Shown here in pieces: positions 9,358 through 44,412 of a stretch of 64,000 nucleotides of DNA. Both the position numbers and the translations under genes were made by a program. Source of the stretch: Bryum argenteum (taxonomy: Eukaryota > Streptophyta > Bryopsida > Bryales > Bryaceae); the NCBI GenBank assembly GCA_037043015.1, contig CM073326.1:11602345-11666344 (forward strand). The letters are read 5' to 3'. The notes beneath the pieces are model-generated. The model made no database searches. It saw only the letters and a list, made by a program, of their open reading frames with translations, and was not told where the DNA came from. How positions within the stretch are numbered: the first letter of the stretch is position 1; the number at the start of each line of letters is the position of its first letter.

Positions 9358-9387
9358 GGCAACCAGGGATGTCAATCCGGACGTCTT

Positions 9388-9990
9388 TTGGGTTTTTTTG
9401 GTCGGACGGACGTCCGTCCGTCCGGGGGGTAAATCGGAATTACTATGCATGTAGTAAATTTTTTAACCGTCAGATCGTATTGAAAGTCGCATCGTAGCCG
9501 TTCAAATAGTGTTGTGAGTGTAGGTGGTTACCATTGGATTGTAAAGGGCGGCCCAGGACCGTCCGATTGGCCCTGGCCGACCGACCGGTCGACGGCGTCG
9601 GATCGGTCGCAGCCGACGGATCGGTTGCTTGATCGGCCGCAGGCCGTCCGATCGGTCGCAGGCCGTCCGATCGGTCGCAGGCCGTCCGATCGGTCGCGGT
9701 TTCGGTCGGCCGTCGGATGGGACGCGGTCGGCGCCGGTCGTCCGATCGGTCGGGTCGGCCGCCGGTGATCGGTCGGGTCGGCCGCCGCTGATCGGTCGGG
9801 CCGGTCGGCCATCGGCCGTCCGATCTAGGTTGCCGATCGGCCATGCGACCGCGGCCTATATAACGCCGACCGGTCCTCCACTCTCCTCACTTCTTTCCTT
9901 CCTTTTCAGGGTGCGGAGTGGCTGTAGGGGAATGTAGAGGTGTGAACGGTGAGCGTAGAGCGATGAGCGGTGAGGTCGAAGATGGCATAA
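9388..9990. promoter_or_regulatory. GC-rich CCGATCGG-type array with TATA box
   Basis: At 9400-9425 there is a short palindromic GGACGGACGTCCGTCC cluster. From about 9560 to 9840 the DNA is a dense array of GATCGGTCG, CAGGCCGTCC and CGGTCGG words, many self-complementary. TATATAA at 9857-9863 and a pyrimidine-rich stretch follow. Comparable GC-rich arrays lie at 56560-56803, 59538-59684 and 61680-61945, and two of those directly precede TATA boxes and genes. A promoter role is inferred from that layout. No intact gene follows this copy. Confidence 0.45.
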
Positions 9991-10571
9991 ATGAACTTGA
10001 ACATTTTAAAAAATTTCTGTGAAAGATAGGGACCCTATGATCATTGATTTAAGCGTTTTTAAAATTTGGAAGGATTACTTTTGTCCAATTGAGTACCCCA
10101 AATCCGTGGATTTAGTTCCTATTTCCATGTGAATGTGATCATCGCACCATTTTATAGATCATTAAGGAGGGAATTTTGACCCCGTATTTTATTCTCGTGT
10201 AGAAATTAGGGCTGACGTCATCGTTTCCAAAGCATATGAAATTGGAGGTCACCATTGTCTTTCGATATAGTTTAATATTTTTTACACACTTTTATTTGAA
10301 TTGCGGGATTTAGATTATATATTATTTAGCGACATTTAATTTGGAGTATTGTTTTTCCATTAGAAATTTAGAATTAGGGCTGACGTCATCATTTTCATTA
10401 CAGTGTATTTTCTTTCGTGAAGCACGTACTGTATGTTTAGATATCAACGATAATCACGATAAGTAATAATTCAATACCGAATTCAAAAACATATTAAGAA
10501 ATAGTATATTATGGCAATCACGAATACATGGCGCTACCAAGTCGAGCACCTATCGGAAAACAAAGCACATA
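9991..10571. other. AT-rich non-coding stretch
   Basis: No gene is visible. It holds the 13-base near-palindrome ATAGGGACCCTAT (10027-10039) and two copies of AGGGCTGACGTCATC (near 10208 and 10377). The stretch 9940-10150, read on the minus strand, is a diverged relative of 45440-45640, upstream of the kinase-like gene. Shared landmarks are CTAAATCCACGG, TCTTTCA plus an A/T run, and CACCGCTC repeats. Confidence 0.5.
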
Positions 10572-13500
10572 CTACGCTGAAGGTGTAGTACCATTGAAGT
10601 GCAGGTCACACTCATCAGCCTCAAAGTCTATATACCTAACCACACTACTACTATAACGTAGACGTTTAGTGTCAGACAAGATGGGAGATGGAGCTTCAAC
10701 AAACTCTTTAGCAAGACGTTCAGCGTAGGAAGGAAGAGTGAACGTCGATGGGGGGCTATTGTAGAGATGAGCGTTGCGAGTTAATCGCTCTTTCAGACCT
10801 GCGATGCTAAAAGTACAAAGAAAGTCAGTACAATATATTTGTAAGAGCAGAATACGGATATTGAGAAAATAATAGACTAGATTACTACGCACCAATAAAC
10901 TTCCGTGGCTTCTTCACGGGCGGTTCGTCAGAGTCATAATCTGCAGGTGGGGCCGATTCTCCACTTTCTTCATCACCGGGCGGACCATTTTTGTATTCCG
11001 CTAAAACACCATCAAAGATTTCTTCGTCAGGTTCCATGGCGATGAGGTGTCGGTTTGAGCGCGCGCAAGCAGTTACAGATGCACCTAAAAAATCAGAAGC
11101 CCTCGTTAAAAATGCAAAATGTATAAACGATTTATAAAGTTGCGTTTATGGATACGTCACCTGTACTTGCGCTCCAGTCGAAGACTATACCTCCGTCGTC
11201 CGTGAGACAATCTACGAAACATTGAATGAAGGAGGGGTCCTTCTCTCGTGAGCCTCGCCATGGCGTACCGTCCGGACGAGTACGCAATGTGTCTTTGTTT
11301 GCAAAGTTAGAAAGGTGCTCTTCCTCATCCGGTATGATTGCCACACCCGCGTATGCGTGTGCCACTTGCCGAGTTTAGAACTTCGAAACATAATCTTTAC
11401 GAACATAAATTTTGATATGGAAGCAGTGAGTCTGCAAAACACAAGTACAAATACGTTAACATAGAAGCATAGAAGACAGTAATCTTAAATTGTGAGAATG
11501 GAAACTACAAAATGCTCCGTACCTCTTTTGGGTGCGGTACGATAGAGGCCATTGGGAGTGGATTATATCCCCACCAATCTCGAACAACACGAAAACCATA
11601 TGTATGGGATTCGGAATCAAGAGTACGCTCGATTCTAAAACATTTGGGATGCATCAGAAGAATCGCTCCAACGTCTGTCAAGTGGTATGCGGCAAAAATA
11701 AAAAGGCTCTCAAAGTAGTTTTTATCACGTCGGTTCCAGGAAGGAATTTCTGTTGGAGACACACCCGGTACAAGCAAGTTCTCGGGAGCGTCTGCAAAAA
11801 TGGGATCAATCCCTGGATGTTTGGGATCATACTCCATCGCCGAACACGGGTACTTACGGTCTTTTCCAATCTGAGATACAAGGCAATAATTAGATAGTGG
11901 CTTATAGATTTACGAGTACAAAACGTAATTAAGAAGATTATAAATGCCAAATGTATGAAGTAATACCTTCTTGATGTGCTCAATGATATCGAGGATTTGC
12001 GAATCCCATTTTGCAGTCTTCGACGATTGATGAACCAAATCTACAATGTTGCCCTTCTCGAGGTACATAGGTAGAGTGACTGTAATTTTCGACGACGAGC
12101 TGCTACCAATGTGATTGGGTTTCGGAAGAGGGCGTTTGGCGAATTTTGGCTGACTGAGACGGCGAGGCAACTGCGGAGAGTTGTGGTCAACGGTAAAGGA
12201 CACGGGAGGGGATCCCGCATTCGTAAGTCCACCTCCGGAAACCTGAGTCAGTCTTGCACCACGTCGAATGACATTGACTGTCGCACCATGTGAAGTTTGA
12301 GTAAGATCAGGTTCCTCGGGACCTTCCAGTTGGAGAGGAGCAATGTCTCCGGAATGTTGTTGAACATCTTCCACAGGGTCCGCACTAGCGTTGCGTCGCT
12401 TCTTCTTTGCTCGAGCTTTAGGCAGTGCAGCTGGGGACGGTGGTGGAGAACTTGAGACAGGTGCGGTTGGTAGAATCGAGAGGTCGTCGTCGTCGTCATC
12501 ATCGATTTCCATGGGTGCATCGTCAGCTCCAAGTGAACCGAGGTTTCGAACAAGTTCTTTCTCCTCCTTGTGCACGAAGTTAGCCTGACACTCAAGGAAC
12601 CAGCCTCCCGTCATCAACTGTGCGTTAGTAAATTGCCTTTGTTGGGATTTGGAGAAGACGCTCGAGGGATCGTTCGTGAGTGCAACGTCTTCCAACTCCA
12701 AAGGAATGGACCATGAAGCTAAAGCTCCCTTCGCAACAACTTCTTGCTTCAAGTACCTACAAACAGAAGAGCCAATTAGATCGACGGAATCAAATATGTG
12801 AAATAAAATTTGTTAGTAGATAATTAGCTAGAGGTTGGCATACCGGAATTACAATCGTTTGATGGTGACTTTGCCACTCGCAATCTTATAAATATCCGTG
12901 CCTTTGATAAATTTTGGGCTGGCATTTGGAGCAAGGTAGTTGTCGAATGCCTTCTCCTAGTATAGCAATCTCCACTTCTCGACATATGCGGGTGGCTTGA
13001 GGATGGCGTCCGACCACTGAATGTTGAGATTCTCTTTCTCCATAAGTTTCTCTAATTCACTTTCAAGAGATTTTTCCAACTGCACATACATAGATGACGT
13101 TGGAAAATGTATTACTCAGATGGCAATAGTAAGGTAAACACAGAATTAGTGACCAATTTACCTGTGCCCATAGAGAAGCACGATGGAGAAATGTCATCAA
13201 ACTTTTGTCCTTCATTGGACGGTCTTCTGGGAAGTGGACCAGTCGACGTACATCATTTGGAGAGTTCCACCATTGCAACCACTTTGCCTTGAAATCGAAG
13301 TGAACATTGGTAGTTGCTACCATGTGCAAGCGATCGATTGTCATATCCGGTTTGAGGTTTTTGCTGTAGTGTGCATAAATCTGCACACAAGACGGATTGG
13401 AATACAGAATTTATTATTGTAAAGCAATGATATATAGACAGAAAAGAAACTTCAAAAAAGGGTCATACACACCTCTTTAGGGAATACTCTTCCAAGATTG

Positions 13501-15322
13501 TAATTCGCCACTCCGACCATCTTGTCAAAGTTTTTGCCACGGATTGCCTTTATTTCAGCTTTAATGGCATTATCCATGGCACTCCATACTCCCGGCCCTG
13601 ATTGCTTATCTTTCGGGACAGTTGCATAATAAGCAGTCTCGGCATCGTCCGATGCTTTGACTAACCTCCTCTACAGAAGACAACCCAAAGATAAGAAGAT
13701 GTAAAAAATTAGACATTTGTACAAGAGACAAGCAAGTGTTTAGAAAACTTACCGAGTATAAGAACTTAACGAAAACGTCTAGGGTCACTGGGTACCAAGT
13801 TTCTTTCTTGGCCTTAGCATTCTTGCAGATTCTGTAGTCCTCTGGACTTATGAGATCTTTGAATCATGCAGTTTGAGCTTACCAAATTTCCTCATGCGTT
13901 GAAGTTTAGCACAAAGGCTGTCTTCAACATAGTCATGTTCAGTAGACCTACGGATCAAAATCAGGAATTAGAGAAGTTGAAGGGAGATAAAATATCGAAA
14001 AAATTCCAGTTTAAGAATATGAATTCCTCTTACCAGTTGATGTCATTCATGACGTCGAGGAGCAAACTGCTCTCCCCACGAGCATCGAGGATGATGCAAT
14101 CAACAGAAATATGCCACGAAGCATCAAACTTATGGTACCTTTCGATGTGCCGCATCCACGCCGTAACACGATGGTTACCTTCGTAAACATAAAAGTACTT
14201 GCCGACGAGATGATGGAGATCCGGATCCGAGCGCAACGTCTTGTCGAACTCGTCATTCGCCTCTCTCCAAAGCGTATCCGTAAACACATCATTTTCGGCA
14301 TCAACTACTTTTTCTCTCCCTTTTCTATCGAAGGGAGAAACGTACATGACCCGGTCGCCCTCCCGATAGCCTTTGTTGAACTCATTCTCCAATTTTCGGA
14401 CGTCTTGTTCCGATATTGGTCAAACCTTAGGATAGCAAACAAGGCGACACAATGGAATCATCATACGCGATTTCTTTACAGGTTTGATACGCAACCTGTT
14501 GATGACGGCGATTGAATCACTCTTATGAATCATTCGCATCTCGTTTGTGCTCCATTCTGGGTCTTTGTTTTCGAGATGCGGGGGCATATGAACAATCCCG
14601 ACCTTCACACCTCCCGGCAATGCAGGTTCCTCATCATCGGATAGAGAATCGTGTCCATCGTCAACATCAAAAGTTTGAGGGAGTTGGGCAGTTTCGGACG
14701 GACTTTGGGGGGAAACCGCATCGCGTGAGCCTCCTAGTATTTGTTGCTCAGGAACTACGTCGTCACCACCAACGATGTTTTCATTTCGGACGGTAAGAGG
14801 AGGTTGGACATCCTCTTCTTCCTCAAGTGGAGAAGCTGGGGATAATGTCATCTGGCAAGAAAAACAATCAAGTACAACAACGCACATACATAATAAGAAT
14901 ATGTCAAGAAGGAAATAAAAAATCAATGGAATGTTAAATTTGATATATGATAAAGTTAATTAATAAATAACATATATTGTGGATAATAATCTAGTCAAGC
15001 TTGCACTTTGCTGCGAGTCGAGGTGAACGGCGGGGAGTAAGTCTGGCCAATGCCATGGCTTCGAGACGACGTATTTTCCTTGTGCGTAATAGTTACGCAT
15101 GTATCTTGCTCGTGCAACCCGATCAATATCAACACTTAAAGTGTGACGGACAGAAGAAGCATGAGGGGGCGTTACTGGAACCGAGGACAAAGGTATTGCT
15201 AGACGCCGAGACTCAAATACTTTCAGGACATACGATCTAACTTCAGACAAGTCACTATCCGCGTCGGATTCTTCTCCCTCCACAACAGAAAACTTCTTCA
15301 AAACGTTGGCAGGATCCTGCAT
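10572..15322 (-). pseudogene. ParB-like domain plus beta-class N4/N6 DNA methylase-like protein, decayed multi-exon gene
   Basis: About eleven exons with GT-AG junctions can be followed from 15322 down to the stop near 10572. An acidic N-terminus leads into a ParB-like fold: IPLCRLVCYP (about 14460), PISEQDVRKLENEF, then YFYVYEGNHRVTAWM (about 14160-14190), where GNHR matches the ParB GxHR signature. Middle exons carry an unrecognised region and an acidic/Lys-rich segment (about 12290-12520). The exon at 11876-11520 has FADAPENLL in the place of methylase motif IV (DPPY-like), then a hydrophobic core. The next exons give REKDPSFIQ, GGIVFDWSASTG (motif I, DPFxGSG-like, split by an intron) and ACARSNRHLIAMEPDEEIF. 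Motif order IV then I is that of beta-class amino-methyltransferases. Stops at 14420-14422, 12957-12959 and 11375-11377 and a frameshift near 13866 show decay. The aromatic residue of motif IV is Glu here, so activity is doubtful even before decay. Confidence 0.6.
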
Positions 15323-15529
15323 TCCCACGTACCGAAACTTAGGAAAGAAAATATCACCAAAGGAATTAAATTAGCCGTTACATGGAAAACAACTAAATTG
15401 ATTATAATCATCCGTTTAGTCTAGGGTACGAAATAAAAAAATAAATAACAACGTACTCCACTCTACATCTTAGGGAACAACCGAAAACGGGAGGAAACAA
15501 AACAACACAAGATAGGGTCCCTATGGCCA
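15323..15529. other. Upstream flank of the ParB-methylase gene
   Basis: About 200 AT-rich non-coding bases. ATAGGGTCCCTAT at about 15511-15523 mirrors ATAGGGACCCTAT at 10027 on the other side of the gene. Confidence 0.4.
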
Positions 15530-17765
15530 AAAAAACAATTCCCGAGGGGTCCAGCTCTCACACCTCTCATTCATCCATGACAAGCAAGCACATCACCATG
15601 ACCATGACAAAGACGGGACCAACATGACGACGAAGAGCACCACGGGGGTCATCCCTCTCAATGACGAGATCATTTGCTCACCACGACCATGACGAGAACG
15701 GGACCAGCATCATGAGGAGAGCCACAAGGAGCACCACGAGCACCAGGACGACATTGAACGGAGTGTTGGGGAAAAAAAAATCTTGAATCGCATCCTCAGG
15801 GGTCAGCCTTGCGTCCACGCAAGGCTGAGCCCCTTCCCAGGATTCATGCCAAAAAAAAAAATTTCCCGAGGGGTCCAGCTCTCACACCTCTCAGTCATTC
15901 CTGACAAAGCAACCAATTCACCACGACCATGACGAGAACGGGACCAGCATCACGAGGAGAGCCACGAGGAGTACCACAAGGAGCACCACGAGCACCAGGA
16001 CGACATTGAACGGGGTGTTGGGGAAAAAAAATCTTGAATCGCATCCTCAGGGGTCAGCCTTGCGTCCACGCAAGGCTGAGCCCCTTACCAGGATTCATGC
16101 CTAAAAAAACAAATTTTCCGAGAGGTCCAGCTCTCACACCACTCAATCATTCCTGACAAATCAACTAATTCACCACGACCATGACGAGAACGAGACCAGG
16201 ATGACGAAGAGGAGCACCACGGGGGGTCATGCCTCTCAATGACGAGATCATCTGCTCACCACGACCATGACGAGAACTGGACCGCATGACACCACGACCA
16301 TGACGAGAACGAGACCAGCATCACGAGGAGAGCCACGAGGAGCACTACGAGGAGCACCACGAGCACCAGGACGACATTGAACGGGGTGTTGGGGAAAAAA
16401 AAAAACTTGAATCGCATCCTCAGGGGTCAGCGTTGCGTCCACGCAAGGCTGAGCCCCTTCTCAGGATTCATGCCAAAAAAAATAATTTCCCGAGGGGTCC
16501 AGCTCTCACACCTCTCAGTCATTCCTGACAAATCAACCAATTCACCACGACCATGACGAGAACGGGACCAACATGACGAAGAGGAGCACCACGGGGGGTC
16601 ATGCCTCTCAATGACGAGATCATCTGCAAACCACGACCATGACGAAAACGGGACCAGCATGACACCACAACCATGACGAGAACGGGACCTGCATGACACC
16701 ACGACCCAGCTGCTCACCACGACCATGACGAGAACAAGACCAGCATCGCGAGGAGAGCCACGAGGAGCACCACGAGGAGCACCACGAGCACCAGGACGAC
16801 ATTGAACGGGGTGTTGGGAAAAAAAAAAACTTGAATCGCATCCTCAGGGGTCAGCCTTGCGTCCACGCAAGGCTGAGCCCCTTCCCAGGATTCATGCCAA
16901 AAAAAATAATTTCCCGAGGGGTCCAGCTCTCACACCTCTCAGTCATTCCTGACAAAGCAACCAATTCACCACGACCATGACGAGAACGGGACCAACATGA
17001 CGAAGAGGAGCACCACGGGGGGTCATGCCTCTCAATGACGAGATCATCTGCTCACCACGACCATGACGAGAACGGGACCAGCATGACACCACGACCATGA
17101 CGAGATCGGGACCAGCATGACACCACGACCCAGCTGCTCACCACGACCATGACGAGAACGGGACCAACATCACGAGGAGAGCCACGAGGAGCACCACGAG
17201 GAGCACCACGAGCACCAGAACGACATTGAACGGGGTGTTGGGAAAAAAACAAATCTTGAATCGCATCAATGACGAAAGCATCTGCTCACCACGACCATGA
17301 CGAGAACGGGACCAGCATGACACTACGACCATGACGAGAAGAGAACGGGACCAGCATGACACCACGACCATGACGAGAACGAGACCAGCATCACGAGGAG
17401 AGCCACGAGGAGCACTATGAGGAGCACCACGAGCACCAGGACGACATTGAACGGGGTGTTGGGGAAAAAAAAATCTTGAATCACATCCTCAGGGGTCAGC
17501 CTTGCGTCCACGCAAGGCTGAGCCCCTTCCCAGGATTCATGCCAAAAAAAATAATTTCCCGAGGGGTCCAGCTCTCACACCACTCAGTCATTCCTGACAA
17601 ATCAACCAATTCACCACGACCATGACAAGAACGGGACCAGCATGACGAAGAGGAGCACCACGGGGGGTCATGCCTCTCAATGACGAGATCATCTGCTCAC
17701 CACGACCATGACGAGAACGATACCAACATCACGAGGAGAGCCACGAGGAGCACCACGATGAGCAC
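15530..17765. repeat. Higher-order satellite array with a hairpin in each unit
   Basis: Units contain, in order, CCGAGGGGTCCAGCTCTCACACC, a variable number of roughly 30-bp CCACGACCATGACGAGAACGG subrepeats, a GAGGAGCACCACGAG run, GAACGGGGTGTTGGG, a poly-A run and GGGGTCAGCCTTGCG-TCCA-CGCAAGGCTGAGCCCC. The last is a 15-bp stem with a 4-base loop and one bulge (first copy 15799-15832). The GTGTTGGG landmark recurs at intervals of about 220 to 430 bp, and length variation comes from the inner subrepeats. Long open frames across the array are by-products of the repeat. No gene is supported. Confidence 0.85.
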
Positions 17766-17943
17766 CAAGTCGAGAATATTTAGGGTTTAGCACCACGACA
17801 AGACGAGCGGTAGAACTGACTCCCCCTGGCGAGCCTTGACCTCATCATCGTCAGCAGTTTCGGTTCTGCTGGTGGACGGCAAAACATCGAAATGCCGCTA
17901 ACCCTAAAATACGTAAACCTGATAGCATGAATCCCTGGAGTGC
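17766..17943. other. Short spacer, no gene seen
   Basis: Non-coding sequence between the satellite and the 27-bp repeat ORF. Two AACCCTAA-like words (17781, 17900) are present but do not form an array. Confidence 0.4.
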
Positions 17944-18556
17944 CTAAGGCAGCCTAAGCTTCTGTGGATTGAGACTGACCTTCAAGATCCCCGACGAGAA
18001 GGGCTCCAAGTCGGCCCGAGTCTTCACTGCTTTTCCTCTTCCATGGGGGTAGAATATGTGAAAATCGGCAAACATACTTGTATCTGATGATTCCGTACTC
18101 ACATTGCGTGAATTCAGGTCGTTGTTGTTTCCACCTTGGAGTGCTCGCACTTCTATGTTTCCAGCTTCGAGGTTGAGCCCGTCCTCCCCACCTTCGAGGT
18201 TGAGCCCGTCCTCCCCACCTTCGAGGTTGAGCCCCTCCTCCCCACCTTCGAGGTTGAGCCCGTCCTCCCCTGCTTCGAGCTTGAGCCCGTCCTCCAGGAT
18301 GACTATCTTCGCCATAGCTCCTTCTTCTGATCTTGCGGTACTTCCCTACAAATTTGAACAGACAAGAATGAATTGCACATACGTTGTGTGCGTCGGAGGC
18401 GCCTACCAGACTATCTCCACCAACTGCAACGAATATGTCCAGTATAATCCAAATCATGTCAGAAATCGGCATCTCTTCTGTCATCTGACTTCTTCCGAAA
18501 AATAGCAATTCCTCTCTGGTGGCGAAGCAGTAGCGCCGATTTTGTCCTACGCCCAA
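17944..18556 (-). CDS. Hypothetical protein with 9-residue GEDGLNLEG repeats
   Basis: A minus-strand frame from about 18315 begins MAKIVILEDGLKLEAG and contains five tandem copies of the nonapeptide GEDGLNLEG, encoded by a 27-bp DNA repeat at 18160-18300. A Ser/Asn-rich stretch and a basic tail ending at 17944 follow. An upstream open stretch (18556 to about 18340) could be a first exon joined by an intron with a donor near 18400 and a TTGTAG acceptor. I do not recognise the family. The period being a multiple of three and the repeat keeping one frame favour coding, but it may be an expanded minisatellite in an old TE. Confidence 0.3.
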
Positions 18557-19402
18557 AATTGGGTTTCAAGCTCAGCCTACTTTGAAATCCTATGTTTGAA
18601 CTCTATCAGAAGCAGCGCCGGCCTAAACTTCGCTTACATCTCCCTCACAACTCCCGCGTCGAGGACTGCCCGAATACAGCGGGGTCAACAGCACGAAGAC
18701 GAATGGCGATGGGGGTCTGTCAGCAGCACGATGAGACACTGCAAGTTGACGACGGGCGATGGGGGTGAGCTGATCAATGACGAATATGGCTTCCGCCAGC
18801 TTACCGGCCCCGCAGAAGAAGACACACCTCCGACACCGCAGACCAGCGATCGTAGACTGCCCCTTCCAGTATCGTTGAGTGCCCCTTCCCGATCGAGACT
18901 GCCCGTTCTCTTGCGTAGACTGCCCGTTCCCGATCGTAGACTGCCCCTTCCCGTTCCTAGACTGCTCGTTTCCGATCGTAGACTGCCCGTTCCCAATTGT
19001 AGACTAAACGTTCCCGATCGTAGACTGCCCGTTCCCGATCTTAGACTGCCCGTTCCCGATTGTAGATTGCCCGTTCCCGAAGGCTGCCCGCGAATCTATT
19101 TACTTAAATACTCGTTAATTCTAATTGCCATCCTTACTTTTTGGCTGTACTTATTGACAATTCCTAAAGGTAAGAAGACACATACAATAATTAAGAATAG
19201 TTATTTGTGGTTACACATATTGCACGTATGTTTGAGATTGTATTTTCAATCTCCAATATCATCTTACTTGGTCCAAAATATCAAAAATGGGGTTCACTAC
19301 ATTGTTTATCTATTACTCTATCAATTCTTGGATATTCATATATCGCTCACTTTACTATTTCTACTGCGGTATAATATCGGGACAACAAAAACGCAGGTTT
19401 AA
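18542..19402 (+). repeat. 21-bp minisatellite, possible repeat protein
   Basis: From about 18845 to 19085 a 21-bp unit, GATCGTAGACTGCCCGTTCCC, is repeated imperfectly about ten times. It translates as the heptapeptide RRLPVPD in a 286-codon plus-strand frame. Flanking translated sequence has no recognisable domain, and the frame ends in AT-rich DNA that looks non-coding. I treat it as a minisatellite that happens to be open. It overlaps the 5' end of the neighbouring minus-strand frame. Confidence 0.4.
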
Positions 19403-20656
19403 AGTACGGAAGAGAATGCTAGTATATGTCCGGCCTCATTCATTACACTCATAAAATATGTCATATCATCCTTCTGCTCATCGCCAACACTTATATCTTC
19501 GACTCCGTCATCTTTGTACGCTCGGCATGCATCACCCTAAGTTCAAACAAATACAATCATTAAAACAAAGCAACAAACTTTCACTGACTAATAACTTAAG
19601 TCTAGCGTACCTGACTCTTTGAATCTACAGCAACGCTTTCGCCTGCCTCTTTGCTTCCCACATCGGCTGGCACATTGCTCCCAACATCGCCTCCTACATC
19701 GCATCCAACATCGCCTACAATATCGCCTCCAACATCGTCTCCAATGTAATAACTTAGCGAATCACTTGACGTCGAACTTTGCCTGCCATTCTCCTGCTCT
19801 TCGCCGAAGCTCCTCCAATCATCTTCTTCAGTACATTTTTCACTCTCTGTAATCTCTACGACAGTGTCGAGATTGATAGACCGCATCTTTACATTACGCC
19901 TAAAGTCTGACCCGCCAACTTCATCGTCTCCGTCAAATCCAACACGTCCATGCTCGTCTCCACTTCACCGCGACGCTCCAGTCTTTCGCATAGCGCTTCG
20001 CTTCCGCGCCTTGGTATTACTAAAACGTGTACCACCTCTCCTCTTCTTCCTCTTAGGCATACTCTCACTGGGTTTCGCCAAGCCCATGCCTACTGCATCC
20101 ATGCTCTCAAACTCGCATAAGGACACCAAACAATGAAAAGAGCGATATAGTGGGCATCTTCCATCTTATACACTTGTCTCTCCTCTCCTTCATTAATTGT
20201 CACAACCTGGATGACGGCGCACTGAGTGCCAAATATGATAGTATCTGACAGTGTAAGCTAATCTATTTTTCAAATTTAAATACGCTTCACCTGACATTGA
20301 CGGCCGCCGTCACCTACCCATTATTTACTAATCTAACTACAATTACTCTGACACGGATAGTAGCCTCCACTTTTCCTAAATTCACTATGTCTAACACATG
20401 CAAATTAATGATACCGTCTAAACCCGTAGTTTAACTTATACATTTTTACAACAGTATTATTCCTAATACTAAATAGAATGATCGCGAGAGCATTTGCTAT
20501 ACCCGTCACTTACTAAGTAATAATGTAGCCGACCTATTACACTAAATACGAACTCCTACTCTCCCCACTAATCCATTATAAACTCTTTTAAGTCATCTGT
20601 TTTAGTTTCTCTCACCTTCACATCACACGCCCCCTGTCGCTTGGAAAGCGAGCACA
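19403..20656. other. Region upstream of the Mutator-like gene, with 12-bp repeats
   Basis: The only structure seen is a short array at about 19675-19745 (units like ACATCGCCTCCA). On the minus strand it gives repeated VGGD/VGSN tetrapeptides inside a 94-codon frame (19886 to 19602). No domain is recognisable. 20140-20656 is probably the 5' flank of the transposase gene starting at 20657; no TIR could be located by eye. Confidence 0.35.
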
Positions 20657-20677
20657 ATGGTTTCCTCCGCTTCCCAT
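20657..20677 (+). pseudogene. Mutator-like transposase, first seven codons
   Basis: ATG at 20657 opens MVSSASH and is cut after 21 bases by the CACTA element. The CAT codon at 20675-20677 is also the 3-bp target-site duplication, repeated at 34784-34786. The frame resumes as LPVLNVIEISSCF, so the real start codon of the gene lies 14 kb upstream of the rest of its first exon. Confidence 0.75.
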
Positions 20678-20693
20678 CACTAGAGGAAAACAG

Positions 20694-22200
20694 TGATTTG
20701 TCCCGCGTTATTTCGCGTCAAAAGTGACGTTTACCTAGACTAGTCAAAATTAGTGTGGGTAACTTGACCAAAGTGACTTTCTGCATGTTAATCGGTTTAA
20801 CATACTTCCGTCACTATTGACGTTGGTTTAACAGCGAGTGTCATAGTGACACTAATGGATTTTGGAGGAACGGAACCGCGTTAAAACGAACAGAACCACG
20901 TCAACGTTGACATGTACGCCCCCGGGGGGGGTAACTTTAGCACTTCATTTTTTACCTTCTAGTAATTTTTAAATGATTAAATATATTCATGATCCACGTC
21001 AGCACATTTCTTTTAACATTGATAACGTTTAAAGTGACATGGGCGGCGTTCGATGTGTTACTTTTGACATATTCATAAATCCTACGTGGAATGCCTCAGC
21101 GATGTGGAAGGCTTATGTGGAGGATAGGGGTGACTAGGACAAGTTGGTGTTTGTCCGACGTGGATGTCAATAGTGACGTTGCCGTTTATTTTGACGCACA
21201 ATTGTGTCAACATGTGTTTAAGAAAACGTAATGACATAGCTGACGTGTCAAGTGCATTTATGATAGGGTGACGTGGCAGTTCGGGTTTGACTTGGTCAAT
21301 GATCCTAGAGAGTGTCAATGTTGACGTGAATGTCAAAATTAACACATATTATTTTTAATTGTGCTTTAGGGTTAGGGTTTGACCTACGGCGGCTAGGATT
21401 TGACCTGTGTCAAAATTGACGTACGTGTCTAAAAAGACATAGGATGTGTTAAACACTGATCCTAAAGATGTCATCATGCATGCGTTTCTATTGACGCATG
21501 GTTAACGCCAGCGAGTCATTACTGACGTCGTGTTACTTGTATAACGTGAACGTGTCAGTAGTGACCATTTTTAACGTCATCGTGTCACTAGTGACGTTGT
21601 TGAAGCATAAAGTCGTGAATGCGTCACTGTTGACATTCGTTGAACGTGAACGCGTTAATAATGACGTAGTCATAACGTCATTCAATCCTTATTGACGATC
21701 TATGAACGTGCTCACGTCACCATTGACATTTTTGAAACATGAAGTTTTAATCGCGTCAGTATTAACACTAGTTTAATGTGAACGTGTCACTACTGACGTA
21801 GGTTTTAAACCAAAGCGTCCTTGTTGACGCCGCAACTTCGTGAACGCGTGTCAATTGACGTTTGTATAAACGTAAAGTCTTGAGTCTTTACCGGCGTAGA
21901 TTTAACGTGGATTTGTGAACGCATCACTATTGACATAGACTAAACGTTAATCTGTCCGTGCTGACAATGTTTAAACGTAATCCCGTCAATATTGACATAA
22001 TTTAAGCGTTTTGAACACACAACAATCGTTGGTTTAACGTCACAGCGTCAATATTGACGTTTAGTAAACAAAAATTGCATTTAACGATTGTCTCACATAA
22101 CATAAAAAACACATTAGGTACGTGTTAAACTGCGTTAAGATGAACATCATGTGTTCCGAGGAACGTATTCGAAAGCACTACTATTGAGATCATTGTTCAC
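20694..22200. repeat. Left subterminal repeat region of the CACTA element
   Basis: No gene. Short paired motifs such as GTCACTATTGACG, GTCAGTAGTGAC and GTCAATATTGACGT recur every 20-60 bases on both strands, often as GTCA-N(4-5)-TGAC inverted pairs. In En/Spm elements, arrays of short repeats in this position bind the TnpA protein; that role here is inferred from position. Confidence 0.75.
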
Positions 22201-22304
22201 TATCTGATGAATCGCCAAGGAGGTGGTCTGATTCCTCCTCGTCAACGTCCGCTGCTACTAGCTCTTCTACGTGCATGTCTACGAGGGACCCTTGTAGTAT
22301 AAAG

Positions 22305-25300
22305 TCATCCACCTCCGTAGATTACATTTCTCTGTTTGTCTATGTTATTGGAATGTGATGAAACCGGGTCATTGGTGTCTGAAATGACATTGTCCTGTTC
22401 GATAGCAAATGCGCGACCTCCACGGCTGCCTCGAACTTCAACATTGCACACTACTTTCCACGGCCGGTCGTCTGCTACAAAATACACTTGCGACACATGA
22501 ATGGGGAACGCAAAAGACGTCGGACCCAAAGGTACTTTGTTGTGATCTGCAAAATTCACAGAAAGAAACCCATGCTGGTCCCGCTTCATTGTTGCAGCAG
22601 CACCTCCTATTCTTCCTTTAACCCATGAACAGACAAGGACTACAACGCACACGTGCTTTGTAGTCTAATTCGAGTATTTCTTCAACATGGCCCACATACT
22701 CCTCCGTATCTGCCCCTGCATTGTTGGTGAAGATTGCGTGTACGCCACTGTCCATAGTGACGCTTGAAGCTTCAAGTGAGCGGCAACGGAAGTGCATGCC
22801 ATAAGCCTTCATTGACCGATAAGCTGTCGCATTGAGCAAGGGAGGCCTGGACAAATCAACTGTTGTTTGGTCAATGTGACGAGAGCCATCTGCACGGTCG
22901 CTGTCGACCGCGACTGTCAGCCAATCTGGAAATGGCTCCAAAGCTCTTAACTCCATCGGCATGTCAGAAGGCTTTTGTCGCCTACGCCTAGGTCTTCCGC
23001 GATTTCTTGCACGGCGTAGTGTGGTCCTTGCCTTCTGCTCTACCTCGTAAGCCCTGGATTGTGCATTTAGCATTAGTGTTGTCTGCAATCAAAAATAGTA
23101 GTCAACGAGCCGCGGCATAAGAGTACATGGAAAATGTGTACATAGTGACACATTGCTATGCGTTTTAACGCGTTGTAACGCATCCTAACGTGGATTTTGT
23201 TGACGTCTATGTCACCTACTGTTCCCGATGACGTAAAATTATGTTTACGAACGTTAATGGAAACGATACAAATTCAAGAGCGGGTTTGAGGACAGAACTT
23301 GGCACCTTCTGTAGTGCTGTAGCTGGGCAGCATTTGTGACTACGAAATTATGAATCCAATCACGTAGAGTGCGGGACATGTGTCGCCTTATTCCCTTGCC
23401 CTCCACCATTTCATCGTGCATTGCCTGATCTTCGTTTGAATCCCACACTCTTCGCGATGTAGCGCCATAACGTTCCATATACTCTGAACAGAATCCAAGT
23501 GTTTCTTCCATGGAATATGCCTCTGCCATGCAACCCTCTGGCCTAGCGTAGGAACGCACATAATCCTTAAGGGTCTTCATATAGCGCTCCATTGGATACA
23601 TCCACCGGCTTTGAACAGGGCCGCATAGGAAGAGCTCCTCCATGAGATGCACAAGAAGGTGCGTCATTATCACCAGTGATCCTAGAGGGAACTCGCGCTC
23701 AATCATACAAAGCGTCTCGGAAGCGTCCTCGACATACTCTTGTTCTTTAGACGCGTGAACTGTGCGTGAGCACAGGCGTCTAAATACCCTGCTGACCCTC
23801 ATGATACAAGTTCGGACATCTTCATTCATGTCGACATTCCGTAGTGACATAGGTAGTATCTGCAAATGCAAGTGAAATATGATTATTTTGCAATTCACAT
23901 GGAACTTAGTAATTCTAACAGCAAAGTAGTGCAAGGTAAAAGTGAGTTTACAATACCTGCTGCATGAGGATGTGAAAGTCGTGGGATTTAAGAAACCTCA
24001 GTCTACCTTCGGAAACCCTTTTGTAAATTGCTCCAGCATAATTTTGTGGCACCTTCGTTGATCCTATCACGCCAAGCATGTCCGTCTTTGCCCTGGGACT
24101 GAGAACATACGGTGCATGGGGCATGAATAGTCGACCATCTGTGCGATGTGTTTGTCTCAACCACAGGTCCGACCTGACTCCCATATCTTTGAAGTCCATC
24201 CGTCCTCGTGGAAAATCAGTCTCTCCAAACAAAGTCTTTATTATATTTTCACACAAGTTTTTCTCACAATGCATGACGTCCAGTGTATGTCTGATGAGCA
24301 AGTCCTGCAGCTCATTAGAACACCTCAGATGTAAATATCCCGAGATGTGTCAAAACAAATGTCAGTTGAAAATGACTTCGCGGATTGAAGTTTTTGTCGA
24401 TTAATTCACTTTTACCTTACTTTTACGTTACTATGCGTCCGTCATGACACGGCTGAACAGTAATTAACATTACTTGACTTACTTCGTGTTAATTTGGACG
24501 CTTGTTAACAGAGTTGTACTTTTCGATGTGTTTCGAGTGACATTGTGTTAACAGTGTTTGACATTGTTTTAATTGTGTTTGACATTAGTTACTTCTTGTT
24601 AACAGGGACGGTGGTTAAACAGAGTGGTATATGCGTTTCGAGTGACACTTGGTTAACATGTTTTATTGCTACGCACCCTTTATCAATTGACACTGTTTGA
24701 CATGATTTGACGTTACACAGCGTTTCCTCTGACGAGTTGTAAATAAGTTTACATACCTTCCAATACGGAAGCGAGAAGAGCACAGATAATCTCTTCACTC
24801 CGTGTGTCCTCATAGGATCGCGAGGACCATCCGCCCTTCCTCCTGAGGCAAGATAACTGTCTCTTTCTTGTGCAAAGCGCAGAACATCTTCGCCAGTAAT
24901 CCTCGAACGGGAAATTCCTTTCTCTTCAAGCCCGTTGAAGCGGAGATCTAAGCGGAACACACGGTGTTCCGGAAGACGTTGGCGTGCACCTACATACACT
25001 ATTTTGTCTTTCTTGGGGCCTCTGGCACTTCTAGAAACAATGCTAGGACCGCATACGGGGCAAGCTTTGTAGCCCTTAGTTTGTTGTCCTGAAATTAAAC
25101 CATAAGCCGGAAAATCAGAAATAGTCCATAAAAGAATGCCACGAAGAGTAAATCTCCGATCTTTGTCATGTGCTGAAGCGTCTATGGCTGGTACACCTTT
25201 CCAGAGCTCCTGTAATTCTTCCACCAGAGGCGCTATAAAAACATCTATGTTCTTGTCTGTTGGAGAGTCCTTGCCCGAAATTAGAATACTCATCACAATG

Positions 25301-26470
25301 AAAAACCGTTTCGTGAGCAACCACGGTAGAAGGTTGTACATAACCAAGAGGATAGGCCAAGTAGAATGTGATGTGCTCCGAACCGAGAAAGGGTTCATGC
25401 CATCGAGAGAGAGTGCCATTCGCATGTTGCGTTTTTCGGCCTCGAACGTGGGGTCGATGACACCGATGTGTTTCAAAATTTGGACTATCGATGACGGTCT
25501 CCATCTTGATTTCCCCATCGTCATTCATGGGCATCTCTCGTTCCGAGTGCCATTTTAGAAGCTTCGCAATTGCCGGTGAGCTATACATGCGCCTCAACCT
25601 CGGAATGAGAGGGAAGTGTCGTACAACCTTCACTGGCGTTGACTTCGTGCCTTCTCGGTATCTGCTTCTCTCGCAATGTGGACATGATTCCAGGTCCTTG
25701 TGCTCACCTCGAAATAAAACACATCCTGACGGACAGGCATGTATAACATTATATGCTAATCCAAAAGCCTGCAGCATCCTCTTTGCTCTGTAATGCGAAC
25801 CGGGCAAGACATTTCCGCGTGGAAGCAGCTCTCCAGACAAATAATGAAGCAGCTCAGTTACAAAAGCGTTGCTCACCCCATGCGTTGAGCACAGTGTCAT
25901 CAATACGACCACAGCTGAAATGAGGCTCACTTGGCTTCCTGGATACAGTGGATGTGAGGCTTGCGAGTATAGTAACTTCAGAGCCTCCATTGTGCTATCT
26001 GAAAACTCTGTCTCATCATTGTCCTCCGTCGGCATATTGTCGCAATTTTGGGTCATCTCCTGTAACTCTTTCCCGGTTCTCAAAGCGTCCTCAAAATGTT
26101 TGTTGTACCTCGTGGTGGCCAACAGGATCACAACCTTCGTCTTCAAATTCGATATTCTCAAAGCGTTCTTTTTCACACCCTTGGTTGTCCACCGTCCATT
26201 CCTCATCACTGTAGTACCAAGCTCCATATACTGGATACCCCCCGGAGGATCTCCTCCAATCATCGAGTGGTATAGAAATTGATCCCGCCCATACGAAGAG
26301 AGATGCCTTGTTATTGCGCGTGTTGGGATACGTCGGCCGCCATGACAGTAATTGCACGGGCACGACCATCGTGTAATGGGGACATCCCTACTTGCAGCGA
26401 ATTGAAGCTCATGATGATGAATGATTTCCGCAGTTGATCTCCACTTGCGTTTTGTTTTGGAGTTCACCAT
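22305..26470 (-). pseudogene. TNP2-type CACTA transposase (TnpD-like)
   Basis: Start codon at 26470 (MVNSKTKRKW). Exon 1 (26470-24757) carries the N-terminal zinc-binding part (CPCNYCHGGRR), a C-x2-C region and the Transposase_21 core: LSLDGMNPFSV, ISGKDSPTDKNIDVF, DFPAYG and GYKACPVCG. Exon 2 (about 24305-23957) opens with HTLDVMHCEKNLCENIIKTLFG, a conserved TNP2 block. Exon 3 (about 23859-23306) is the DUF4218 region (HLLVHLMEEL, GPVQSRWMYPMERYMKTLK, ARPEG). Exon 4 (from about 23082) is the DUF4216 region (YVGHVEEILELDY, QVYFV). Introns show GT-AG ends. One-base frameshifts near 25480 and near 22640 break the protein. The family cuts and reinserts CACTA elements at 3-bp target sites. Confidence 0.9.
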
Positions 26471-28997
26471 TTCTGCGTTCAAGCCTCGAAAAGATTAAAG
26501 TCTATCAAAGCGCCTTAAAGTATGTCAAAGCGCGTATCCTATGACATAAGAGAACTTCAGTAATGACGTTTCAGTATGTTACTCACCGTTAGAGACCGTT
26601 GTTGATGACGCGAACAAGCGTCACAAATGACCTTTCTGGATGTTTAAATCGCGTTATAGATGACGCAGTTATACGGACACCGTGGTTTTCAGAGCCGGTC
26701 AGGAACAATGGCAGGCAAGGGTGCCAGTCCACTGAGGTTATGGCTGCCGTGTGCTCCAAAGTGGGTTGTTTCGTGGACAAACCCCGCTGTAGTTGAATTC
26801 TAGAACAACAACAGTGCAGAATTGATTGTCATACAATCACTGCTAGTTTTAAGCCAAACTCCAGTTGGGCATGCGTACTCTGAGTCCTAGACATCAGCAA
26901 GAAGGGGCTGAACTCGAGTTGAATGACCTTTGACTAAATTCAGAAAGGCACACTCTCGGTAATGCATGCCGATAGCTGTGAATCTCTACACCTTCAGCTA
27001 CATTCATGATAACCTCTAATTCAACGCGTAAGGGCATGGACAAAACCGACATACACCAACTTCAACTACCAGTGGCTTCCAACTAACCTCGCGCAAAATG
27101 GTGGTATAATAACATGAATCAATCATGTTGTAATCGACCATGCAATCTCAGAAATTCACCTCCAGGCAGCGATTGAAGGCTTCCAGTTGACTCTCCGACC
27201 AAACACCCTCCGATCACTCAATAGTGCTATAAACAACGTGAATATCTCTCCTCACAGTCGTCGAAGGCTTCCGATTGTCAAACAGAGTGATGAATTTGAA
27301 TATGCAAGCTGAAAATCTACGAGTATTAAATTGCACCGAGCTGCAAATCTGTCAAAACAGGGCATTGATCAGCAATACAAACCCGACTAGCCCCTAAAAC
27401 CGAGATTATTCAGTGCACCAACAAAAAGCCAAATGTTCTGAAGTGCAAGCGTAAATACAAACAGTAGGTTTTGAAGGTCCAGTAAGAATACATCACCAAG
27501 TGATTCCGACATTTGAAAAGGAAAGAGGCGAACACGGTAAAAAGATAGGAAAAAAATCCACTAAAAGAGAGAAGTCAATATCTTACATTTGCGTGAGCCC
27601 CTTGTAAAGTTTTGAAAAGCTTTTGTGTAAGAATATCCACGACCTAGAGGCAATTCATGACTTTAGTGTCACTATTAGATTACCGTAGAATAAGTATTAT
27701 ACATTGTGATGTCGATGAGCACACCCTTACAACATTACTTTTGAAACTGCATTGGTACACACTAATAAATCACTACGCTCTTTCTTTGATCAGGTTTCGA
27801 GCTGTAAGGATTCTCCTATTCCCGAATTCTAGAGTCAAGAAGTACATGCCTCGGGCTACAAATTCACAAATTACATGGTTCATACTAGATATAAAAACCT
27901 ATCTCTGTCGCACATGGGTGGTCGAATTACATATTGAACCACGTCATGAAAGCACAAGTTGGAGTACCTTCACCGCTCCAGAGTCATCTCTTTGCCCGCG
28001 AGGTATGTGCCTTTAGTATTCACCACCACCTTCAAAAACACGACACCGAAAGTTTCAAGTCTAACCATATTCTCTCTCACCGGTGTATAAAACATCACGA
28101 GAGCTTTAAGAAGAAAGAAACACAACTAATAGTAAACTCTGTGGCATTATTGAATAGTAAACTTCAGAATTGTACCTGGTTGATCTCATCAGCGTTGAAT
28201 GAATAGGTTTGTAACGGGCTCCCTGTAGGCCCCTCCATTCAATACAACACCACTGACATGTTAGCCATCAACAGCTTTGAAGAAACAACGACTAGTCTCG
28301 TGCACAAGCGATGCATCAAAGACAAATTACTCAGCACTTCGAAACGCACGTCACGGATATCCAGGCAATAGACTCTGCAACCGAAAGCAGCATACAACAA
28401 GTGCTCACTACCTACATGGTCTACGATGATTGCAAACATGACACAGGCTGGAAGTTGCAAACAAAATAGAATTGCTTTAATCTAACAGCTCAACGAGCAG
28501 CTACACAAAAATGTCCATGCTATTTTGTTAACTCTTCAAGTGAACCTGCTTTTTTTTTCATATGCTAGAACTCTTCATTTGTGATGGCACGAATTCCGTA
28601 TGAGTTGACAGAAGAGAGCTTTTAACACTGACATTGTCACAAATGCATCAATGTTGACTCGACGTTGCGTTCAATTGACACTCCAACGCGTTTGAATTGA
28701 CACTCCAGCGCGTTTCGATTGACACTCCAGCGCGTTTCAATTGACACTCCAGTGCGTTTCAATTGACACTCCAGCGCGTCTAAATTGACGCATTGTGCAC
28801 AACATGCAGTCGATCAACACTTTTTAGAAATTCATGTCAAAATGGAGATTTTAGTACTATTTCTAGATTTCCGCAGTAGTAGGGGAGACGTACCTGATCA
28901 CCGTTGTTTGATTTTACTGGCGCACGGTTGTAGGGTCACCTACTCAAAATCGTTTATGGCGGCCGGATTGCACTTGATCATAAGTATCCTGGCAGAT
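26471..28997. promoter_or_regulatory. Central intergenic region between divergent CACTA genes
   Basis: About 2.5 kb with no credible gene. It should contain both promoters, since TNP2 reads left and the TnpA-like gene reads right. TTGAC/GTCAA words are frequent near 26500-26680 and 28610-28800, while 26800-28500 looks like ordinary AT-rich unique sequence. It includes the 22-bp repeat at 28676-28792. Confidence 0.5.
28676..28792. repeat. 22-bp tandem repeat upstream of the TnpA-like gene
   Basis: Five copies of ATTGACACTCCAGCGCGTTTC with period 22 lie about 200 bp before the TnpA-like start codon. Each contains TTGAC and GCGCGTTT, words also scattered through the subterminal regions. The array may be a binding site for the element's own protein. 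Confidence 0.75.
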
Positions 28998-31900
28998 ATG
29001 GAGACCGATTCTACCACAAATGCCTACGAGCTATTGCGAGACGCAATTCTAGCGAGCAACAGAGAAGAGTTGGCATTGCGATTGAAGGCGGAGGGCTTCG
29101 ATCCCTCCATTGCGCGCAGCTTCCTTCCAAACACGCTCGTTTCTTCTATCAAGTCGTCCGCTGCGCCAGCGGTGCGGAGAAGTCAGCGTCTGCGCCGATC
29201 AGAATCGGTGGACTCCGATTACCATCCGACGCAGAGGCAACGTGATTGCCAACGGAGCGACACCGACCAAGCTCGCAACTTTGTAAGTCCACGCGCCTAA
29301 CTGCACCAGCAAGCGCCCTTCTTCCTTGCACCTTTTTGTATTCTAGTGTTGGCTGACCTAATTTCTACTACCGATGGATCGATGTTGCTTGAATTGTGGG
29401 TACTATTTGATTACTTTGCAATGGTAGTGGCGGGAGAGGGTGAGGGAAGAGCTTCGTACTTTACTGCTGCTTGCGGAGAGTTTTAGGGATTCGTGTAGCC
29501 GTCAGTGCTGACAGTTAATTAGGTGGACGGCAATATTAAATTGCGATTTTTTTCCTGACAGAAGCGCAGACCTACACGCGAGCTTTTCCAGCAGTGGCGG
29601 TCGCAGACGCACGCACGCAATCAAGTGCGGAGGAACGAGGTGTCGGTGCCAGCGATACTCGCAGCATTGCGGAAGTCATCGGCGCGACACAATTCCATGG
29701 AGCAGTACAGCGAGGAGGAGGGTCGGAGGGGGAAGAGGGCGCGCGTGACCAAGCCGAGCGGTTCTTTCAAACGCCGCGGAGAGAGTCAGCAGGAGCCACC
29801 CGCGACGGCGAATTCGACTGAGAGGGGTGAGGGAGCGGGACGCCGCAAACCGGCTTGATGTCCAAGCGCAAAGGCGCTGGACCGACGTCAATGGAATTGA
29901 GCGAGGAGCTCACACCGCCATGGCGCGGCGCTGCACAGACTGACACCTCCTCACCGTTTGGACGGTCGTCGCGCTCTCGGCCGCCACTAAACACGCCTCG
30001 AGGAAGGATGCGGAGCTCGGGGTCAACAGCTGCAACACGGTTCGTAGCATCGGAGGACTCAGGCAGCGAAGATGACGAGGAGGGCGATGAGGACGATGAC
30101 ACTGGAAGACATGGACGGCGAGGAGGACGATGACCCGGAAGGGAAGGAACCGCTGCGCATCAAGGTGGATCGCCATGGCTTCCCTGTAGGAGCCCACGAG
30201 CCTGTTCTCTTCGGGGAGCTGCAAAAGTTTGCTCGCCAATTGGATCCAACTGTGCGACCCGGTGGCGGCAGGGGGGAGAAGGAAGCGCAGAGGGCGCTCG
30301 TCCAACGACCGACAAGGGAATTTGAATTCTATGGAGGCGGTGACGAACTCAACGTGAAGTGGTTTAAGAAGAAGATGTCGAGGTGTGTGACGCGGTCAAG
30401 TATCAAATCAATAAGTTGATTAAGGAGGGAGCCGCAAAGCGGCCGACATTGCCCCAGCGTTATTGGGACAAATTGGTTGAGATGCAGGACGATCCAGACG
30501 TGCAACAAAAGTCGCAGATCATGTCAAGCATTTCATTGGGGAGGCCGTCCAAGACTGGTTCCTCATGGAAACAATCCGTAGAGGCGGCCTCAACTCTGGT
30601 AAGTTCACTCAGTCACATTCCAACGAGGTTAGAAATGTGTAGTATTTTCTGTAGTACTTCATATTTGGCATGTGATCGAGGTTTTATCTCAGGGATGTAA
30701 TCACGAGAAGAACAAAGGTTCATGCTGTGAATGTCTCACTCTCACGGCGTAGTGTGGTCCTTGACGGTCTTTGATGCTGTAGTTCAGAATCTAAGCTTTT
30801 CATGGTTGAAAAGAAGCAACGATGGTGAGATAGCAAGTAATCAAGGGAAAAGAAAAAACTGTGCATTGTGTAACGTAACACAAGATAGAGTACCTGAATG
30901 TTTGAAAATTTCGGCACAATCTCTTCAGCTCTCTGTGTAGTACTTTGTGTAGTACATTTTCAGTCAAATTAGATTACATCCACCGGCGCCTTGTTGTTTC
31001 TACAGAGCTGTGATAGTACGTTATGTATGTTGCTTGAGTTTGTGTTTATTTTGACGTTTCGGATATGTTATTTTGGCGACGACGCATGTCAAGTTCCGTC
31101 ACTACGCGTTTTCTTATGACGTCTCATCGTGTTTATCACGACGCGGGCATATCAAGTTGCATGGCTTTGCGTTTTTTATGACCTCAGATTGCGTTTCTTG
31201 CAAAAAATTGCGTTTCAGGTGACGTGAAACTGCGTTTGAACTTGTTAGAAATAACATGTCTGTGTCAGACACTTGTGTTTAGACCGGTTCAACCTTCGTG
31301 CTGATTAACAAAGTTGGAGTGGGACGAATGTGGTTTTCTGGCAAATCACTGACAGCGTGTGGACTCGTGCGACAGACTTTAAGATACGGACGAAAGCCAA
31401 CGGATGCGGAAATTGCCATCGAGGTGAAGGCAATGAGGCAAGCGGAAATCGATGCGCGCATGATGGCAAAGAAGCGGAATTCAGAAACCCATGATGATTC
31501 CCGGATGGAGCGGATTGAAGCGTTGTGTGCAGCTCAAGACGAGAGGTTGCAGAAGGTGGAGGACATACTGAGGGAGGTAATTTCAAAAAAGGCCAGGACC
31601 ACACCTCCACCCACGCAAAAGAAAGAACGACATCGAACACGTCCGAGGCGGATCTCTAAGGAGACACCCGGGGACAAACTTGCACAGTCTCCAAAGCCCC
31701 TCATGGACGTTGGAGAGCAGGCGCCAACGCTCCCCAACACGGCAGTCGACACAAAGGCGCTCACAGAGGTCCCCTCCCATGACGATATGGAGACGGGGGA
31801 CGCTGGCCGCGAAGCTTCTCCGGAGGACACGGCCGTGGACGCATCTACAGAAGCAGATGATGGGCCTGCACCCACGGAGACGGCAATGGAAGGGCCAGTG

Positions 31901-33590: not shown

Positions 33591-33599
33591 AATCGGCAG

Positions 33600-34767: not shown

Positions 34768-34786
34768 CTGTTTTCCTCTAGTGCAT

Positions 34787-37894: not shown

Positions 37895-37899
37895 CCCTG

Positions 37900-39812: not shown

Positions 39813-39817
39813 ACTAA

Positions 39818-44407: not shown

Positions 44408-44412
44408 ACTAA

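Follow-up and report, generated by a model that had tools for sequence, protein, structure and literature searches.

Bacterial ParB proteins load at 16-bp parS sites and then spread, and fusions of ParB with DNA methylases exist in phages. How does a spliced gene in a plant genome come to join two such domains, and what might its product do there? The locus that raises the question lies in a 64,000-nucleotide stretch of Bryum argenteum DNA (the window), in which a preliminary description, made from the sequence alone, had proposed a gene with introns that combines a ParB-like and an N4/N6 amino-methyltransferase-like domain. We find that a transposon with terminal inverted repeats (TIRs) carries this gene as its second, accessory gene, divergent from a transposase-type gene. 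The explanation that we favour, with moderate confidence, is that the transposon encodes a ParB-like protein with a pseudo-methylase tail that binds the element's own parS-like arrays, either for anti-silencing or for transposition. We propose self-binding because a ParB fold under selection adjoins arrays of parS-like palindromes upstream of its own gene.

Each component has precedents: TIR transposons, VANC-type systems, permuted methylases and ParB proteins have all been described before. We have not met their union with a palindrome array in a plant transposon; no transposon with ParB and a methylase appeared in a literature search of titles and abstract openings, with subscription papers and preprints outside its range.

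A spliced ParB-methylase gene and its copies

The window belongs to a genome of 258.8 Mb in 25 contigs. A plant-lineage host, as had been supposed, is supported by contig C12, whose open rbcL matches chloroplast-type RuBisCO chains (the species of these entries being presumed) and is flanked by open frames read by eye as accD and atpB. All of the peptides first singled out are present on the minus strand of the window, in open reading frames (ORFs) at 14420-14959 (IPLCRLVCYP), 14030-14419 (PISEQDVRKLENEF and YFYVYEGNHRVTAWM), 11505-11909 (FADAPENLL), 11132-11374 (REKDPSFIQ and GGIVFDWSASTG) and 10885-11145 (ACARSNRHLIAMEPDEEIF). They are not chance occurrences, because the ParB-like exon repeats across the genome at 79-97% identity; this range covers 149 places besides the window among the 150 that were scored out of 1076 candidates. 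Contig C1 holds 62 of these 150 copies in 44.1 of the 258.8 Mb, and is an unusually element-rich chromosome.

Exon ends were fixed by comparing 17 copies from the same genome, the window included, and this gives a gene of ten exons (E1-E10; window 10572-14851, minus strand) with AG/GT borders at the fully covered exons across the 17 copies. The ten exons of copy L012, on contig C9, splice to a protein of 1168 residues with AG/GT at every intron, and such conservation of splice signals bears out the predicted introns. The window copy is a pseudogene, as had been thought, because E1 has a stop at codon 144 and E2 has lost one base. Copies without an internal stop, for which a genome-wide search had been suggested, do exist: there are three among the 17 (L012, L015 and L026), of about 1168 codons, although the exons lifted from L026 run out without a stop codon and none was located. 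Over the whole gene, the three pairs that these copies form have a ratio of nonsynonymous to synonymous substitution (dN/dS) of 0.13; L012 and L013, the latter with one stop, give 0.11. The ratio is 0.06-0.10 for the ParB region (three pairs, dS being saturated in the fourth), 0.08-0.12 for the methylase region and 0.25-0.42 for the acidic N-terminus; synonymous distances to L026 exceed 1, so that ratios involving it are rough. Judged by these ratios, the gene has been under selection during its multiplication. Upstream of E1, a minus-strand open frame at 14960-15370 (MQDPANVL...) is matched in 18 of the 20 copies that were fetched. Conservation does not extend to its ATG, whereas a TGCAG acceptor appears conserved by eye, so the frame may be an extra 5′ exon or else a small gene in its own right, with a basic stretch at its end.

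The assignment of E1 to the ParB fold is supported by a predicted structure. An AlphaFold model of the full ParB domain of relative P0017, which is 54% identical to the window exon, has a pLDDT (predicted local distance difference test) score of 87, and the solved structures nearest to it are ParB, Noc and KorB. We used this domain in place of a 129-residue fragment from the window, which lacks the first strand and whose own AlphaFold model gave no ParB match by Foldseek or VIA-align. The G, N, H and R of the GxxR signature of the ParB/sulfiredoxin fold are invariant in 29 aligned sequences. At rank 25 among the fold matches is a 'DNA methylase' of Mycobacterium phage Vincenzo, which resembles the plant protein in having a ParB-like fold in a protein so named; the plant version differs from phage ParB-methylase fusions in its long middle part and altered catalytic motifs.

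In the profile comparisons suggested in the preliminary description, Pfam ParBc (PF02195) gave no match at E values up to 10, and the N6_N4_Mtase threshold was passed by a diverged relative from the same genome, L036, and not by the L012 domain. Single-exon Pfam scans gave nothing clear, and the ParB exon alignment, used as a profile against the PDB, returned no matches. No relatives of the ParB exon were found among viral contigs and prokaryote genome contigs by profile scans and tblastn. Horizontal acquisition of the gene from bacteria or phages is plausible.

An altered methyltransferase domain

The spliced methylase region of L012 reaches E 0.01 and 16.2 bits against Pfam N6_N4_Mtase (PF01555), under the cut-off of 26.7, and E 1.5e-4 against a PHROG DNA methyltransferase; in NCBIfam the L012 domain finds one DNA methyltransferase at E 0.04, and two other relatives find unrelated weak matches. 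PHROG searches gave weak methyltransferase matches for relative P0033 (E 0.045 and 0.17) and nothing for P0032, and a profile of L012, L015 and L026 finds PDB entry 5hfj, 'Adenine specific DNA methyltransferase (DpnA)', at E 0.55. Searched genome-wide, the Pfam model places two loci, L036 and L037, slightly over its cut-off, and none of the main family.

The methylase of L036, spliced by eye, scores 31.7 bits against the cut-off of 26.7 and matches the L012 domain at E 1e-19 with 29% identity. With a joint profile of four sequences, the E value for 5hfj falls to 2.1e-5 and CcrM is matched at E 5.7e-5; the profile is in register with CcrM (6pbd) over its positions 13-229 of 237, with DAPENL lying over DPPYNL and DLSASTG over DPFFGVG. 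Motif IV precedes motif I in this alignment, and the domain is therefore of the permuted kind. Judged from these profiles, the C-terminal domain is descended from permuted (beta-class) amino-methyltransferases, and here the proposed ancestry holds, L036 being over the Pfam cut-off and the joint profile in register with CcrM.

The preliminary description had also suggested that relatives could write N4-methylcytosine (4mC) or N6-methyladenine (6mA), and the motifs speak against this. Motif IV is readable in 20 of 34 sequences, and the canonical catalytic (D/N/S)PP(Y/F/W) occurs in none of the 20; in its place are DAPEN, DVPEN, DVPEH, DALEN, DAPED, DAPSN, DAPDG, DTPSG and DTPFD. The aromatic residue is missing from 19 of them, the twentieth, L036, retaining one as DTPF. 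Motif I, read with a loose anchor, is DWSASTG or DWSPSTG in all 15 readable sequences among 33 and DLTASTG in L036; it departs from the cofactor motif FxGxG, and the canonical DPxxGxG is nowhere in the 33. SPPY strings do occur in three broken copies, where they lie in out-of-frame stretches away from motif IV. In bdelloid N4CMT, a change of SPPY to APPA abolished activity (PMC8885841), which is why activity of the transposon domain appears unlikely. In favour of an active enzyme that marks the element's DNA with 4mC or 6mA are the purifying selection on the regions of both altered motifs and the aromatic residue of L036; with the catalytic position altered in 20 of 20 sequences and motif I altered wherever it is readable, we regard it as very unlikely. 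N4CMT is otherwise comparable as a permuted, bacterial-type N6_N4 methylase in a eukaryote that is tied to transposons and tandem repeats. N4CMT is a host gene with an active SPPY and a chromodomain (PMC8885841), whereas the gene described here belongs to a transposon, has a degenerate motif and includes a ParB domain.

L036 itself represents, on sequence comparison, a far older branch of this element: its ParB exon is 41% and its E4 31% identical to those of the window, and a divergent transposase-type gene is present. This branch (L036, L037 and L038) lies at C4:20496841-20508900 and at about 9.88 Mb on C7, and its ParB exon is seen at 20.501 Mb on C4 (100%), 9.88 Mb on C7 (99%) and 20.515 Mb on C4 (99%, partial). 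With DTPF as motif IV and a motif I that no intron interrupts, it may perhaps be the best place to seek methylase activity. When the L036 exon was the query, 150 of 1021 candidates were scored and, three near-identical places excepted, had 41-53% identity, an uncounted share of these places being main-lineage copies. These places also include further ParB lineages, which share 41-53% identity with the L036 domain; an open frame of 222 residues is present in eleven of these.

The transposon, its palindromes and a possible role of the protein

Spread by a mobile element, as had been proposed, is upheld by the many copies in the same genome, their shared ends and a target-site duplication. The region originally marked out encloses the gene, and misses the element's ends, the target-site duplication, the partner transposase and the palindrome arrays (Table 1). 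The two ends have a 17-bp block in common, with one mismatch in the window. The window and four close copies stop at the same base (window 9927), CTCTACATTCCCC, beyond which the flanks are unrelated. Upstream pieces were fetched for three copies: in L011 and L012 homology to the window returns past nested insertions, in L012 as far as window 45624, and the 10 kb upstream of L010 contain no left half of the element. Both ends are known for two elements, the window's and that of L012, which has a target-site duplication of GCAATGCTGT and GCAATGTTGT (9/10 matching).

Relatives of the transposase-type protein number at least 233 in the protein collection. The last block of the L012 gene shows by eye a C-x-C ... 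C-x4-C-x-H pattern; Pfam SWIM has no match in the transposase pieces or in seven long relatives. Mutator-like elements (MULEs) usually have target-site duplications of 8-11 bp, and the 10-bp duplication in both elements with two known ends is similar. The transposase differs, since two pieces of the window's element and seven long relatives matched no Pfam transposase model, and none of eight sequences covering the MULE transposase domain (PF10551) matched it. In hhalign comparisons with 16 of the genome's 52 MULE matches, one D and a C-x-F-H stretch fell in register at a probability (Prob) of 0.2, not above 30 column shuffles; we do not call the transposase a MULE because the alignment is no better than with shuffled columns. 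A viral identity for the whole element was also rejected, because a DNA transposon accounts for its ends, its duplication and its gene of transposase type. For P0020, a ParB-type relative, and P0113, a transposase-type relative, the longest contigs are equal in size (674,632 bases), suggesting joint occurrence of the two in another genome.

A tandem array and 16-bp palindromes occupy the stretch that separates the two divergent genes. Among 21 copies (the window and 20 fetched), nine have at least three exact palindromes CTTGCGTNNACGCAAG in this position; their array units differ among copies yet retain CTTGCGT-NN-ACGCAAG, usually within CAGC...GCTG. L019 and L021 have variant palindromes of CCTGCGGTACCGCAAG or CTTGCGGTGCCGCAAG type, L022 has an imperfect variant, eight copies have none in the stretch seen, and L026 was not judged. 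A TRF (Tandem Repeats Finder) scan of ten other copies found arrays in seven; the old family of L036 has neither the palindrome nor a long tandem array. The core being imposed by the search, conservation was assessed outside it, at ten loci. The four bases flanking the core on each side are 63-100% identical; identity is mixed, with a few conserved patches, to about 50 bases and mostly 20-35% beyond. At each of the ten loci the most variable flanking position (63-64% identical) is complementary in 90-100% of units.

The palindrome occurs 742 times in the genome against about one expected by chance (258.8 Mb over 4^14), and the reversed pattern does not occur. Placement was tested with the first 50 of these sites and the 28 main-lineage copies on C1 below 10.3 Mb. 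Eighteen sites have a known copy no more than 8 kb away and are upstream of it in every case; they stand beside ten of the 28 copies; random placement gave a mean of 1.07 copies with a site and a maximum of 6 in 10,000 trials. Twelve copies of other lineages have no site within 8 kb. The remaining 32 sites are near no listed copy, the copy lists being incomplete. One site, at 294 kb on C1, has the gene in the 5 kb on its left, belonging to a copy among the 28, and a transposase on its right, where 6 kb contain no ParB exon.

Self-recognition of the element by the ParB-like protein is likely on this arrangement. In copies that have arrays, the protein would load at the palindromes between the divergent genes and perhaps spread from them over the element, with the pseudo-methylase acting as a DNA-reading or DNA-bending module and not as a writer; DNA methylation by the protein is improbable. 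Binding could have either of two outcomes, which we consider about equally possible: the protein might hold the element's regulatory region open in the face of host silencing, a role that VANC has in VANDAL elements, or it might assemble the ends and array for transposition or regulate the two promoters. VANC proteins, whose domains are DUF1985 and DUF287, bind short motifs in tandem arrays of their family's non-coding DNA, and DNA methylation is lost through their action (PMC5735166). The comparison is of a transposase with a second protein and of repeated short motifs in non-coding DNA of the element, here putative targets that part of the copies have; the plant protein has ParB and methylase folds instead, and its spliced L012 form has no match to DUF1985 or DUF287. 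Bacterial ParB-parS systems (Spo0J, Noc, KorB) are alike in the ParB-fold domain with its GxxR signature and in short, perfect palindromes arrayed close to the gene, putative sites that many transposon copies have; they differ from this eukaryotic transposon with its multi-exon gene, fused methylase and lack of a curated ParBc match.

The palindromes might instead form RNA or single-stranded DNA hairpins, or be the relic of a small nested foldback repeat unrelated to the protein. Complementary changes are as compatible with a hairpin as with a dimer site, and the absence of palindromes from eight copies (in the stretch seen) and from L036 would be easily accommodated; the upstream position in 18 of 18 cases, and a size of 16 bp and a symmetry that resemble those of known parS sites, make this rather doubtful. 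A tentative possibility is that the protein is a transposition cofactor, comparable to a second transposase subunit, which would recognise the ends or the array for cutting and pasting and have no role in silencing. A divergent transposase accompanies the gene in both families, whose ParB exons are about 41% identical, and the equal contig sizes of P0020 and P0113 point the same way, although the palindromes lie in the middle of the element and not at its ends. That the fold serves as a sulfiredoxin- or kinase-like enzyme and not as a DNA clamp seems highly improbable; sulfiredoxin and a free serine kinase are among the structural matches of the P0017 model.

Self-binding by a ParB-like protein also has a bolder form, which we put forward as unlikely: the element would be a transposon superfamily of its own with a captured bacterial or phage ParB-methyltransferase, in which a clamp switched by cytidine triphosphate (CTP) spreads from the parS-like arrays and blocks silencing while the dead methylase reads DNA. 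It would then be the first ParB-parS-type system on plant nuclear chromosomes. Should the binding itself prove real, a protein of the bacterial partition type would be at work in plant transposons with palindromic sites of their own, in a layout like that of the VANC anti-silencing systems with unrelated proteins, and sequence-specific self-recognition by a transposon would have been invented independently. A family of amino-methyltransferases in plants that are selected yet catalytically altered bears on the debate over eukaryotic 6mA and 4mC, since the presence of a methylase-like gene in a plant need not mean that a mark is written. The element suggests a borrowed bacterial tool for handling a transposon's own DNA.

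Feature coordinates and neighbouring insertions

Table 1. Features of the ParB-methylase transposon in the window
Feature	Position	Strand	Remarks
Whole TIR transposon	9927..45624	-	strand follows the ParB gene; ends at 9927 (right) and 45624 (left); enlarged by nested insertions
Target-site duplication, right	9917..9926	.	AGTGGCTGTA
Right terminal inverted repeat	9927..9965	+	starts GGGGAATGTAGAGGTGTGA; inner limit approximate
E10	10572..10806	-	C-terminus and stop codon
E9	10889..11084	-	remainder of motif I and following acidic residue (ACARSNRHLIAMEPDEEIF)
E8	11161..11431	-	start of motif I (GGIVFDWSASTG)
E7	11523..11870	-	methyltransferase motif IV region; DAPENL vs CcrM DPPYNL
E6	11967..12756	-	linker, S/P/D-rich
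E5	12844..13079	-	
E4	13162..13380	-	
E3	13473..13670	-	
E2	13753..13947	-	one base deleted in window copy
E1	14034..14851	-	acidic N-terminal part and predicted ParB-fold domain (EGNHR); in-frame stop in window copy
Tandem repeat array	15714..17391	.	lies between the divergent genes; unit length about 250-425 bp
Palindrome CTTGCGTCCACGCAAG	15808..15823	.	
Palindrome CTTGCGTCCACGCAAG	16059..16074	.	
Palindrome GTTGCGTCCACGCAAG	16432..16447	.	one mismatch
Palindrome CTTGCGTCCACGCAAG	16856..16871	.	
Palindrome CTTGCGTCCACGCAAG	17501..17516	.	
Transposase, first block	34784..35879	+	ORF 34718-35911; aligns with L011 and L012 contexts
Transposase, second block	37892..39817	+	ORFs 37893-38942 and 39210-39881
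Transposase, last block	44408..45624	+	alignment with copy L012 only
Left terminal inverted repeat	45585..45624	-	starts GGACGTAGCCGGGGTGTGAGCGG; imperfect; inner limit approximate
Target-site duplication, left	45625..45634	.	AGTGGCTGTA, identical 10/10

The element is split by an insertion of about 14 kb (20679-34783) that holds a nested CACTA-type transposase gene on the minus strand (24592-25524; Transposase_21, E 1.9e-58). Directly outside the right end, also on the minus strand, lies a truncated Ty3/gypsy-like polyprotein (6847-9462), in which reverse transcriptase, RNase H and integrase were recognised by eye.

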